Positions 18,409-53,275 of a DNA stretch of 64,000 nucleotides are shown here, in pieces. Under the pieces are notes generated by a model that worked only from the letters and a program-made list of their open reading frames with translations, was not told the origin of the DNA and did no database searches. Positions within the stretch are counted from its first letter, which is position 1; each line of letters begins with the position of its first letter. Position numbers and translations under genes: made by a program. The DNA is from Oscillospiraceae bacterium. Its GTDB lineage: Bacteria; Bacillota; Clostridia; Oscillospirales; CAG-272. The stretch covers positions 55,516-119,515 of the forward strand of contig SVQK01000097.1 of assembly GCA_015065385.1 (NCBI GenBank). The letters run 5' to 3'.

Positions 18409-18478
18409 TGCCATTTGTTGGCGGTTTTCATGCCATAAATTGGCATTTTTCGACCGATCGTTTTGCCATTCGGCGGCA
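18409..18478. promoter_or_regulatory. Three TGCCA-N5-TGGCA palindromes (putative operators)
   Basis: TGCCATTTGTTGGCG 18409-18423, TGCCATAAATTGGCA 18431-18445, TGCCATTCGGCGGCA 18464-18478; centre spacings 22 and 33 bp. Confidence 0.6.
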
Positions 18479-18565
18479 ATGTTCACAGATTTTCGGCAGT
18501 TTCACGCAAATTTCGGCAAGCTGTGCTTGAATTTTGAATTTTCCGTAAATTCAAGAACGGCTTTA

Positions 18566-18594
18566 TTGCAATCGGGCCGGGTTTGTGCTATCGT
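18566..18594 (+). promoter_or_regulatory. Promoter for HTH/beta-solenoid gene
   Basis: TTGCAA-17 bp-TATCGT. Confidence 0.5.
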
Positions 18595-18664
18595 GGAGAT
18601 GCGGATCCGAACACGACAAACGCACGAACAATATACATCGATATGCAGAAAAGGAGAGACGAAC

Positions 18665-20905
18665 ATGACGGACAGAACGATCATCGGCCAGCGCATCGCG
18701 GAATTGAGAAAACAGAAAGGACTGACGCAGGCGGAGCTGGCGGACATGCTCGGCGTCACCCATCAGGCGGTGTCCCAATGGGAGAGAAGCGAGACCCTGC
18801 CGGACATTCTGACCCTGCCCCGGATCGCCCAGATCTTCGGAGAAAACATCAACGCCATCCTCGGACTGGAGGAGACAAAGGGAGAGTCCGCGGAACAGGC
18901 GGAAATCACGGAGAAGGAAAATGAACCGGCGGACGAGGCTCAGCCGGTCATGAAAGAAGAAGCGGAGCCCGCGGAGGCCGCCTTTCCCTCCGGAGAAGCG
19001 GAAGCCGAAGAGCCGGAGGCAGAGACGGAGAACGAAGACGGAGCGGATCACGGTGACGTTGTGCGTATCGATATCCCGCCGATCCGGATCCCCGGAATGC
19101 CGGAAATCACCGTCCCGCCCGTCACGATCCCGAAAATCGGCACGGCGGCGGACATTCTGAATTCCGACGAGCTGAAAAAGCAGATCGAAGAAGCGGCGGA
19201 GAACGCGCGGAATCAGCAGAAGGACATGGAAAAGATCATGTTGGAAAAAGCGGAGGAAGCCCGCCGGAAGAGCGAACGCATACGCAGTCAGGCAGCCGAA
19301 GCCGCGGAGAAGGTACGCGCGGAAGCTGAGAAGATGCGCGGGGAAGCGATGGAAAAAGCGCGCGCGGAAGCCAAAAAAACACGGGAAGCCGTAAGAGCCG
19401 AAGCGGAAAAAGTCCGGGAAGCAGCAAGAAACGAAGCCATGAGAAAGGCGGAAGCAAGCCGCGCCGTTCCTCCCGTGCCGCCGATCCCGCCTGTTCCGCC
19501 GATCCCTCCGGTACCCGGCAAGACGACAGAGGCTTTTATGAAGGAAACGGAATCCGATCTTGAAACCCGCTCCATGACCGCGCAGGAGGGGGACAGCGGC
19601 GAACACATCCATGTGAACCCGGAGGGCTGGTCTCTGCCCGCCTCGGAGGAGACCGTGGACTTCGGGGGCGAAGAGGGAGAATACGAGATCTGCGTCGTGA
19701 AGGACGGAAAGGTCGTCGTCTCGTTCAACGGCAACCCCGCAAGGTTCCTCCACATCCATGTGCACGGCGTCGGCGGATCGCTCCGGTCCGAGCTGTCCGT
19801 AACGGTGGAGGGCGACGTGAACGGCCGGGCGGACAGCGGTCTTGACATGCTGGTGCGGGGGAATGTGAACGGTCCCGCGAACGCCGGTCTGAATCTCACC
19901 TGCGGCGACGTGGCCGGGAACGCGAACGCCGGACTGGAACTGAAATGCGGCGCGGTCTCGGGCAAAAAATCCGCGGGAATGGGAGTCCGTGAAGAAGGCG
20001 CGAAGGAAGCGGAGGACGGCTCTTCCTTCACGGCGGACGGCAAAAACGTCACGATCAACGGCCCCTATGCCGGGGATCTCTCGACGGCGGCGGCGGTCAC
20101 AGTGAACGGTCCCGTGGGGGGCAGCGTGGTCTCGACCGCGTCCGTTCAGGTCAACGGGGACGTGGAAGGCGACGTGACGGCTCAGGGCGACGCCACCGTG
20201 ACCGGCGATATCAACGGAGAAGTGAGCGTGGGCGGCAAGTTGTCCGTGTACGGCGACATAGACGGAGACGCTTCCGCCGGGGGCGATATCGTCGTCGAGG
20301 GCGATGTGGACGGGGACGCCTCGTCCGGGGGCAGCATGACCGTATTGGGCGATATCGAAGGCGACGTGACCGGCGTGGGCGGGGATCTCTCCGTGGAAGG
20401 CAGCGTCTCGGGCGACTTCGGCGGTCTGGCATCGGCGGACGGAAAGACCGTCACCATTTCGGGCGACTACGACGGGGATCTCTCGGGAGCCGCCAGCGTC
20501 ACGGTCAACGGCGACGTCAACGGCGATATCAGCGACGCGAAGGACGTGAAGGTCGAGGGCAGCGTGTCGGGGGATCTGAACGACTGCGGCGCGGTGACGG
20601 TCGGCGGAGAGGTCAACGGAGACGTGGATGCGGGAGCTGTCGCGGTGTCCGGAGACGTGAACGGGGATCTTTCCTCCTCGAAGGACGCGGAGGTCGGCGG
20701 AAGCGTGTCCGGAGATTTGGACGCGGGCGGCAGCGTGTCGGTCGGAGGCGGCGTCGGAGGAGACGTGAGCACGGGCGGCAAGGTCTCGGTCGGCGGGGAC
20801 GTCAACGGGAACATCGACGCGGGCGCGGGCGTGACCGTGGAAGGCGACGTGGCGGGCGATATCGACGCCGCGAAGGTCATTGTCAACGGGAAACGGGTGG
20901 AATAA
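18665..20905 (+). CDS. XRE-family HTH protein fused to Ala/Glu coiled coil, Pro-rich hinge and bactofilin-like 16-residue beta-solenoid repeats
   Basis: MTDRTIIGQRIAELRKQKGLTQAELADMLGVTHQAVSQWERSETLPDI (HTH_3); VPPVPPIPPVPPIPPVPG; many V.V.GDV.GD.....-type rungs. Confidence 0.85.
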   Translation: MTDRTIIGQRIAELRKQKGLTQAELADMLGVTHQAVSQWERSETLPDILTLPRIAQIFGENINAILGLEETKGESAEQAEITEKENEPADEAQPVMKEEAEPAEAAFPSGEAEAEEPEAETENEDGADHGDVVRIDIPPIRIPGMPEITVPPVTIPKIGTAADILNSDELKKQIEEAAENARNQQKDMEKIMLEKAEEARRKSERIRSQAAEAAEKVRAEAEKMRGEAMEKARAEAKKTREAVRAEAEKVREAARNEAMRKAEASRAVPPVPPIPPVPPIPPVPGKTTEAFMKETESDLETRSMTAQEGDSGEHIHVNPEGWSLPASEETVDFGGEEGEYEICVVKDGKVVVSFNGNPARFLHIHVHGVGGSLRSELSVTVEGDVNGRADSGLDMLVRGNVNGPANAGLNLTCGDVAGNANAGLELKCGAVSGKKSAGMGVREEGAKEAEDGSSFTADGKNVTINGPYAGDLSTAAAVTVNGPVGGSVVSTASVQVNGDVEGDVTAQGDATVTGDINGEVSVGGKLSVYGDIDGDASAGGDIVVEGDVDGDASSGGSMTVLGDIEGDVTGVGGDLSVEGSVSGDFGGLASADGKTVTISGDYDGDLSGAASVTVNGDVNGDISDAKDVKVEGSVSGDLNDCGAVTVGGEVNGDVDAGAVAVSGDVNGDLSSSKDAEVGGSVSGDLDAGGSVSVGGGVGGDVSTGGKVSVGGDVNGNIDAGAGVTVEGDVAGDIDAAKVIVNGKRVE

Positions 20906-21753: not shown

Positions 21754-22160
21754 ATAGTGTGTTCACACTATTAAAGAAGGAAACCCTTCGGGTTTCCGGA
21801 TTAATTGCCCTGCTCAGGGCGGGAGGCACGGGGGGACACCAGCTCTGGCCGCAGGTTTCCCCCCGTGCGGGGGTTTCCTTGGCCATATGGCATAACAGGA
21901 CAGCTCGCCATTGCATCCAGATTTGACTGTTCATCCCACTGTCCTCGCGCGGACTATATGTGTGAAGCCGAAACATGCGATGAATTCCGTCTTCGCCGAA
22001 ATTCATCGGTTTGCTCTGCCCAAAGGGGCGACGCAAACAGCGATCGAAACGCGCATGAAAAGAATGGGCTGAGAACGGTAGATATCATTCCCCTTTGCGC
22101 CGCAACAGACCGGTTCAGCACTTGTCTCACATGTGTTTTGGCCGGTTGTGTGAACACATC
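21754..22160 (+). repeat. Dispersed structured repeat, copy A
   Basis: Core TTGGCCATATGGCATAA at 21879-21895; stems GGAAACCC/GGGTTTCC and GCACGGGGGGA/TCCCCCCGTGC; 11-bp inverted repeat at ends. Confidence 0.75.
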
Positions 22161-47134: not shown

Positions 47135-47179
47135 CCGGCGTTCCTCCTTTTCTTCCTCGCATGCAGCGGGCGGATTTTA

Positions 47180-47610
47180 TACTAAATCCCTTCTAAAGGG
47201 ATTATAAGGAATGAAACGCTACGCGTTTCGGATCTAATCCCGCTACGCACAGGAGGCGTCGGGAGGGACACCATCTCATGGCCGATCAAGATTCGCTCCG
47301 CGAACTTGGGTACCCCTCCCGAGGGTCCTGAGTTGCTTGCAACTCGGTTGGCCATATGGCATAAACAGACAGCTCATCCCTGTAGCCGGATTCGACTGTT
47401 CAACCCACTGTCCCCGCGCGAAGTTTCGCCTTTGGCGAACTTCAGAAATTCGCCTTTGGCGAACTTTCAGCGGTCTCTGTTTATGCAGCCAGAGGTCGAA
47501 GAGCTTCAGTCGCGCATTGGGCAAGGGGGCCATCAAGGGGTTGTGCAGGCAAAACTTGTCAGAACTGTTATCTGCACGATCAAACCGTTTAGAAGCGAAA
47601 CAGTTTTATT
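47180..47610 (+). repeat. Dispersed structured repeat, copy B
   Basis: Core TTGGCCATATGGCATAA 47348-47364; stems GAAACGC/GCGTTTC and TCGGGAGGG/CCCTCCCGA; extensive similarity to copy C. Confidence 0.8.
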
Positions 47611-51606: not shown

Positions 51607-51980
51607 TACTAAATCCCTTCTAAAAGGGATTTAAGGAATGAAACCCTACGGGTTTCTGATTTTATGGCCTTGCGCAGGCCGGGCGCCGGGAGGGACACCA
51701 TCTCAGGCCGAAGGTGCCCCTCCCGGAGGTCCCCCTTGGCCATATGGCATAAACTAACAGCTCGCCTCGGAAACTAAGTCTGATTGTCCAACCTACTGTC
51801 CTCGCGCGAAGTTTCGCCTTTGGCGAACTTTCAGCGGTCTGTGTTCGTGCAGTTTGTGCCATGCACGGAGCAAGCTCCTCGGCCTCCGGCGGTGTTTCAG
51901 GCGCGCATTGGGCAATAGGGCCATAGTGGTTTTGTGCGGATAAAACATGTATGAGCTGTACTATGAAGCGAAACGGTATC
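51607..51980 (+). repeat. Dispersed structured repeat, copy C
   Basis: Core 51736-51752; stems AAATCCCTT/AAGGGATTT, GAAACCC/GGGTTTC, CCGGGAGGG/CCCTCCCGG. Confidence 0.8.
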
Positions 51981-52989
51981 AGTAATAATATACGTCGGAG
52001 TAGTTTGTGCCGTTGCCGATATAGGAGGGGTCGATGCCTCCGGCGCAGAACGTCAGATCCAGCCGGTTCCACGCGTCCTTCGGCACCTGGAAGGTAACGG
52101 TGACCCATCCGGTCTCCGCGGTGTAGAACATGTTCCACGCATGGTACGCGCCGCTCGGGCCGACGTAGCCGAACACCATCTTCGTGGGGATCCCCTGCGA
52201 CCGGAGCATGGCGGCGGCGAGCGCTGCGTAATCGAAGCAGATCCCGTTTCCGGTGCTCATGGTGGAGTCGGGATTCGACATGTAGCCGCTCTGCACCGTG
52301 TTGGCCTTGTTGTAGTCGTAGGTGATGGAGGAGGTCACATATTCGTAGACCTTCGACACCACTCCGACGGCGTCCGCGGCTCCCTGCGCCAGTTCGGCGG
52401 CCTTCTTCACGCAGTTGGAGGAGGAGCTGTAGGGGACATAGTCGCTGTTGCGCGTGTACGGCACAAACTGATTGTCGAGCTGAACCCATGTGGAATTGGA
52501 GTAGAGCTCGCGGTACTTGCTTCCCGTCGTGTTCTCCATGATCCGGAACTTATAGGTCGCGCTTCCGAAGGTCAGGGGGAATATGGAAGGCGTGCCGTTG
52601 TTGGCCATGTTGTAGTAATAGTTGTTCCCGTTTACGACTATGATGAATTTCAGCCGGTTCGCGGACGTTCCCTTCGCCGCCACAACGCCAAGATTCACCA
52701 TGGAGAGGTCGAGGTAGGCGTTGTTCTTCCCGTTGGCCTTGTCCGCGTGGAACTCCGCGTAGTTCATGGCCGGGGCCTGATACGCCGCCGGCTGCTCCGC
52801 CCGATCCGTGTACTGCGAGAAGAACGCCTCCATGGAGAGCTCTTCGTTCGCCGTCTGCGTCAGGGGCAGCGGCGGGTCTTCGGGCAGCTCCTCGGTCCGC
52901 TCAACGGCAAGCGGCTCGGCGCATCCCGCAAGGAACAGCAGGGCAAGCGCAATCATGCAGAGTCGGTTGATCGTTCTGAGTTTCGTCAT
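51979..52989 (-). CDS. Transglutaminase-like domain lipoprotein
   Basis: LALLFLAGCAEP lipobox; NGICFDYAALAAAMLRSQGIPTKMVFGYVG..YHAWNMFY (Cys-His-Asp core). Confidence 0.88.
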   Translation of the reverse strand: MTKLRTINRLCMIALALLFLAGCAEPLAVERTEELPEDPPLPLTQTANEELSMEAFFSQYTDRAEQPAAYQAPAMNYAEFHADKANGKNNAYLDLSMVNLGVVAAKGTSANRLKFIIVVNGNNYYYNMANNGTPSIFPLTFGSATYKFRIMENTTGSKYRELYSNSTWVQLDNQFVPYTRNSDYVPYSSSSNCVKKAAELAQGAADAVGVVSKVYEYVTSSITYDYNKANTVQSGYMSNPDSTMSTGNGICFDYAALAAAMLRSQGIPTKMVFGYVGPSGAYHAWNMFYTAETGWVTVTFQVPKDAWNRLDLTFCAGGIDPSYIGNGTNYSDVYYY

Positions 52990-53275
52990 CCGTCGGTATC
53001 CTTTCCCCGCCCGCGGATCCGGCAATCCTCATCAGGCCGTCCGCTTAGGCGGAAACCGCGCGGGAGATCCGTCCTCCCACCGGCTTCAATGGAGTCATTA
53101 TACCATATATACACTTTTAATGCAAGAAAAGTTGCGCCAAAACCAAAAAATCTACAAACCGGACCGAATTTGACGGGCTTAGTTGTGCAAATTGAAAAAC
53201 AGCCGGGATCTCGACTGTTCTTCGGGGAAATTCGGATATGGTCCTCCGCCCGCGGCCTCGTCAGAAATCCCGCGG

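Follow-up and report, generated by a model that had tools for sequence, protein, structure and literature searches.

The pneumococcal repeats BOX, RUP and SPRITE are dispersed, intergenic and MITE-like; they form predicted stem-loops, BOX is modular, terminal repeats and target duplications occur in BOX and RUP, and some copies supply the stop codon of a gene (PMC3049150). REPIN/RAYT systems provide a second parallel, with short intergenic hairpin repeats that occur in a paired inverted arrangement (PMC3116915). These features recur in a short, non-coding element of many copies, three of which (A, B and C, ~370–430 bp) lie in the window, i.e. the whole 64,000-nucleotide stretch of DNA analysed here. 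The host is an uncultured rumen bacterium, in which the copies are dispersed and gene-free. Taken jointly, the evidence favours a transposable element of the MITE-like, non-autonomous kind, present in many copies that include A, B and C and composed of modular, near-perfect hairpins, and we consider this reading likely.

All motifs and stems that an earlier note on this DNA had quoted for the three copies were found at their positions and in the order described, and the stem arms change on both sides, in agreement with the covariation it reported. With limits refined, copy A spans 21754–22159, copy B 47180–47605 and copy C 51607–51978, all on the plus strand. From 5′ to 3′, a full copy comprises a left-end palindrome, the hairpins P1, P2 and P3, the motif TTGGCCATATGGCATAA, a partly variable stretch, CTCGCGCG and a 3′ module. 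P1 has the consensus GAAACSC-TNC-GSGTTTC, while P3 is the long stem, closed by the loop ACACCAKCTC..GGCCGMAGGT. The 3′ module exists in at least two kinds, types I and II, with a third kind in other species. Copy A has a type II module and ends in the palindrome ATAGTGTGTTCACACTAT (21754–21771), common to many type II copies, and at the 3′ side in GTTGTGTGAACACAT. Its P1 (GAAACCC/GGGTTTC, 3-nt loop) lies at 21780–21796, P2 (GCCCT/AGGGC) at 21807–21820, and P3 (GCACGGGGGGA/TCCCCCCGTGC, loop CCAGCTCTGGCCGCAGG), the core conserved across genera, at 21826–21868. There follow TTGGCCATATGGCATAA (21879–21895), a small hairpin that may also form a pseudoknot with the P3 loop, and the type II hairpin CGATGAATT...AATTCATCG (21978–22008), for which 22 distinct arm pairs occur among 63 copies. 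Copies B and C are type I. Copy B carries inserted peripheral hairpins, has the ends TACTAAATCCCTTCTAAA and AGAAGCGAAACAGTT, and is flanked on both sides by the target duplication TTA (47177–47179 and 47606–47608). Copy C begins with TACTAAATCCCTTCTAAA and ends with TGAAGCGAAACGGTA, exactly at the stop codon of a minus-strand gene (51979–53025) that encodes a transglutaminase-like protein (Transglut_core match), where TCA at 51979–51981 reads as TGA on the minus strand.

Extra hairpins are accommodated at fixed sites, namely the P3 apex, the 5′ side of P3, the position before TTGGCC and that after CTCGCGCG. Modules come in several versions each and recombine freely among copies, giving the family a mosaic character, and some copies form inverted 3′-to-3′ pairs with ~380 bp between them. 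A guide-like role for the variable region after TTGGCC was rejected, as this region is partly conserved and its variants are common to several copies, and integron attC sites were set aside because their recombination motifs, judged by eye, are lacking. Upstream of P1, many copies are preceded by chains of triloop hairpins (CAAATGCTCCGCATTTG, CCCGACTTCGTCGGG and CCCTCTTCGAGGG) that resemble another modular repeat. The window's genome also holds a second small repeat family (L181, 2088–2397). Its ends, TACTAAGTTCATTCTAAA..TTTAGAATCAAAATAGTA, are related and it lacks a P3 core; at two loci it apparently sits inside type I right ends.

The motif TTGGCCATATGGCATAA occurs three times in the window at ≤3 mismatches (0.03 by chance) and has 99 matches at ≤2 mismatches in the 4.3 Mb genome, 46 forward and 53 reverse, while the reversed motif has none under the same threshold. 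Additional copies lack the exact motif and carry a changed form such as TTGGCCGGAGAGCATAA, which brings the family to at least 110 (110 distinct copies counted), of which A, B and C are three. Many copies sit at contig ends, where the assembly broke. A pattern search with the motif recovered the element from just 4 of the 25 genomes of the genus, and 73 other genomes gave no match. The covariance-model search that had been proposed as a check was run on the genus and on other genera with a model built from 14 copies, and it revealed diverged relatives in other species of the genus and hints of others beyond it. Among the public matches listed, the named ones are MAGs filed under uncultured Ruminococcus sp., and the RUG assemblies with matches presumably come from the rumen. 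A 29-nt pattern of the element had no match in viral contigs, nothing similar to copy A was found in plasmids and phages, and none of the papers searched contains these sequences or describes such repeats in these organisms.

Type I copies are bounded by terminal inverted repeats, TACTAAATCCCTTCTAAA on the left and TTTAGAAGCGAAACAGTA on the right (reverse complement TACTGTTTCGCTTCTAAA), and the three bases outside these ends are mostly TNA. The flanking triplets are identical in 10 of 26 type I copies, compared with 3.3 ± 1.5 after shuffling of the ends and never more than nine in any shuffle; a recount gave 10 of 30, so that the duplication is exact in only about one-third of copies. About a dozen copies, on the evidence of long open frames, have as their TNA the stop codon of a neighbouring gene. 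Copy A, flanked by a GATase gene and a PFL-like gene, demonstrates insertion polymorphism: in four relatives the orthologous gene pair lacks the element and is separated by 26–40 bp, and these empty sites identify copy A as an insertion. At its type II ends (ATAGTGTGTTCACACTAT and GTTGTGTGAACACAT), which are only partly defined for this type, no clear target duplication was seen. Elsewhere in the window (18440–20905), a predicted protein combines an N-terminal HTH with C-terminal bactofilin-like repeats, and in three other genomes the PFL-like gene has similar GDV-rich repeats upstream. The features by which MITEs are recognised are present here, namely terminal inverted repeats and a target duplication in type I copies and a short non-coding sequence in many copies. 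The inverted-repeat ends, the TNA duplications and the empty sites for copy A therefore point to a non-autonomous MITE-like transposon. The earlier note had left a choice between an independent ncRNA and a non-autonomous mobile element; its mobile half is upheld by the at least 110 copies, the terminal repeats, the 3-bp duplications and the empty sites for copy A. A candidate DDE-type transposase would move type I copies via their terminal repeats, and insertions at stop codons would persist because a TNA duplication can restore the stop.

The core hairpin extends beyond the genus. The P3 loop pattern CCATCTCAN{0,4}GCCGAAG matched 49 of the 397 genomes searched, representing 22 of 71 genera with chance matches still included. 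Copies reach 61 in a single genome, the two orientations are balanced, and the reversed control gave a handful of single matches. Several single matches of the pattern (four loci) are due to chance, being inside genes or in unrelated contexts, so that the safe estimate is an extent of well over a dozen of the family's genera. The core comprises a hairpin loop, CCATCTCA..GCCGAAG, followed by CCTTGGC, and the form shared across these genera is CCAKCTC..GCCGMAG with TTGGC downstream. In other genera it is a hairpin whose 5′ arm is rich in purines and whose 3′ arm is rich in pyrimidines; the loop reads CCATCTCARRCGCCGAAG, and TCCTTGGCT follows some 20–40 nt further on. The genome G198 carries the core inside ~200-bp elements with the ends TGTCGAAAAAGT. 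In 9 of its 22 copies the two flanks share a direct duplication no shorter than 13 bp and exact over as much as 26 bp, against none with shuffled flanks. Allowing one mismatch, these duplications measure 24–28 bp and comprise the target's whole terminator hairpin (L217 and L288–L316). Elsewhere, TGTCGAAAAAGT ends enclose other repeat cargo. At four loci of another genome (G317), for instance, they surround a GGGAGAGGTGGC..GACGGAGAGGG-like repeat, which in the home genus comes after type II elements as well. Ends and duplications thus vary by genus (TACT and TNA in the home genus, TGTCGAAAAAGT and 24–28 bp in G198), and the occurrence of the same core with differing ends indicates that it is not tied to one type of transposon end. 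A more speculative reading, less probable than not, is that the portable core, with its purine/pyrimidine stem, invariant loop and pseudoknot tail, may be a functional nucleic-acid module of unrelated miniature transposons across the family, one that would let undescribed machinery mobilise or tolerate them, some of them copying the target's whole terminator. On the main reading, too, the invariant loop and tail would be recognised, most likely by the mobilising machinery or by a host factor.

In a set of 14 diverse copies, both partners have changed in 11 of the 30 pairs (45 cells), whereas controls with slid partners gave at most one pair and five cells. P3 was aligned within a uniform stem class, since MAFFT misaligns it when stem classes are mixed. 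An RNA-selected helix would be expected to accept G-U on one strand, and among 420 pair cells there is no pair with a one-sided G-U change. Distinct stems contain 36 G·T against 45 A·C mismatches when summed, a total that includes the conserved C·A of the type II hairpin, and a second count gave 11 against 14. The balance is similar in other genera, with 13 G·T against 11 A·C, 646 of 675 pairs Watson–Crick and 47 distinct stems in 49 copies. Since G·T is no commoner than A·C, pairing appears to be without strand preference. Stems are ~99% perfect in copies that are about 20% diverged elsewhere: in 46 type I copies the tail shows 20% per-site divergence from the consensus, a value inflated by alignment error, and 3 of 322 P1 pairs are broken compared with ~35% expected on the presumption of independent decay. 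The equal rarity of G·T and A·C, together with the near-intact P1 pairs, indicates that the stems are kept or made complementary in a strand-neutral manner. The covariation, though genuine, does not resemble ordinary selection on RNA and is best accounted for by a cause at the DNA level, be it a selected DNA hairpin, gene conversion by blocks or homogenisation of the arms. The earlier note had read the compensatory changes as a sign of selection on RNA or single-stranded DNA; the RNA part of that reading is not supported in the form given, as one-sided G-U changes are absent and G·T does not exceed A·C, and the single-stranded DNA part may hold. At the DNA level, complementarity may be maintained by selection on a hairpin or cruciform, by block-wise gene conversion or by replication-coupled homogenisation of the arms, and such upkeep would be preferred over ordinary selection on an RNA helix.

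Two further accounts of the stems need to be weighed against this reading. According to one, the repeats are multiplied genes of a functional ncRNA family, transcribed and acting in trans through the core hairpin and a loop–tail pseudoknot. Loop and tail are indeed conserved across genera, and GCC(G)AAG of the loop can pair with CTTGGC over 6 bp in the wide family (~9% by chance) and over 8 bp in the home genus (~0.1% by chance). The bases that would extend this pairing in the home genus, X before GCC and Y after TTGGC, occur as G-C in 183 cases, A-T in 16 and G·T in ~5, with no A·C. These states hint at a strand-specific loop–tail pseudoknot, and hence at a possible RNA role, but they are suggestive only, because one or two linked haplotypes could account for the covariation. 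Copy A also folds better than its shuffles as RNA (z = −4.4), but its fold as DNA is nearly equal (z = −3.9) and the reverse strand is equally stable. Together with the varying orientation and gene context of the copies and stems that show neither a G-U excess over A-C nor one-sided G-U changes, this leaves an ncRNA family unlikely in our judgement. Rfam 15 contains no relevant match at either gathering or permissive thresholds, so that the remark that the element belongs to no known RNA class is true against that database. The second account, in which the covariation is purely mutational and arises from template switching or gene conversion of hairpin blocks with no structural selection, takes one of the DNA-level causes alone. 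Template switching that homogenises the arms of quasi-palindromes is documented (PMC8604942; in E. coli, PMC7202029). Near-perfect stems in otherwise diverged copies and the block-wise mosaicism agree with such a process. Spacer inversion is a known product of template switching, yet no inverted P1 loop was seen (the order T-N-C occurs in at least 145 of 187), which argues against its frequent occurrence. In addition, the purine-rich 5′ arms of stems in other genera (89%) need a further constraint and the invariant loop requires selection. We consequently regard a purely mutational origin as a serious possibility but not the probable one.

With regard to the mover of this MITE-like element, an IS630-type gene adjoins one of its right ends, which could suggest that the element is an IS630-family MITE and that a DDE_3 transposase of the same genome mobilises it. 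However, the local IS630-type transposase (DDE_3) has ends of its own, TAGCAATCCAC..GTGGATTGCTA, with a TA duplication, which marks it as an insertion within a type I copy; this nested IS630 with TAGCAATCCAC ends is found in the right end of a type I copy at L178 1–543 and L193/L057 (contigs C106 and C122). Its TAGCAATCCAC ends are also unlike the TACT..AGTA of the element, for which an IS630 mover would need TACTAAATCCC, and we regard this origin as very improbable. An IS630-derived MITE such as RUP was rejected on the same grounds, as the element neither shares its ends with the IS630 nor has a TA duplication. Hairpins, intergenic siting, convergent pairs and a structured non-coding core might equally recall REP/REPIN-like palindromes moved by RAYT (Y1), or an IS605/TnpB element with its guide RNA. 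Both are, if anything, still harder to credit, since Y1 transposase was not found in most copy-rich genomes (eight, including G198) and TnpB is nearly absent in a search with its C-terminal zinc-finger domain only. No transposase element with TACT..AGTA ends was present among the end-pattern matches inspected, in an assembly that breaks at many copies.

With the MITE-like element, the repeats of uncultured gut and rumen bacteria gain a large superfamily that is apparently undescribed. It also shows that strong stem covariation is possible in repeats without a sign of tolerance at RNA level, which calls for caution in covariation-based RNA discovery, and it offers a natural system in which to study how inverted repeats stay perfect. 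Insertion at stop codons together with the copying of entire terminators would account for a genome's ability to hold more than 100 copies with little harm.

No known repeat, transposon or RNA family among those tested accounts for the element. IS630-family MITEs are similarly small and non-autonomous with terminal repeats, but their duplication is TA rather than TNA and their ends do not match. The 3-bp TNA duplication resembles that of the IS1031 group of the IS5 family, and the 24–28 bp duplications of G198 resemble the 24–29 bp of IS1202-type elements, in each case in duplication length only. A conserved fold and covarying stems are shared with the structured RNAs of Rfam 15, whereas the element matches no family and shows no G-U excess. 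Compared with REPINs it is longer and has type I copies with TNA duplications, and Y1 transposase is missing from most of the copy-rich genomes. Compared with BOX, RUP and SPRITE it differs in sequence and host, and it has one core in many genera, differing ends and stems that are hypervariable yet near-perfect. BOX, RUP and SPRITE, together with REPINs, are its nearest described analogues, and by the features tested it stands apart from both groups.
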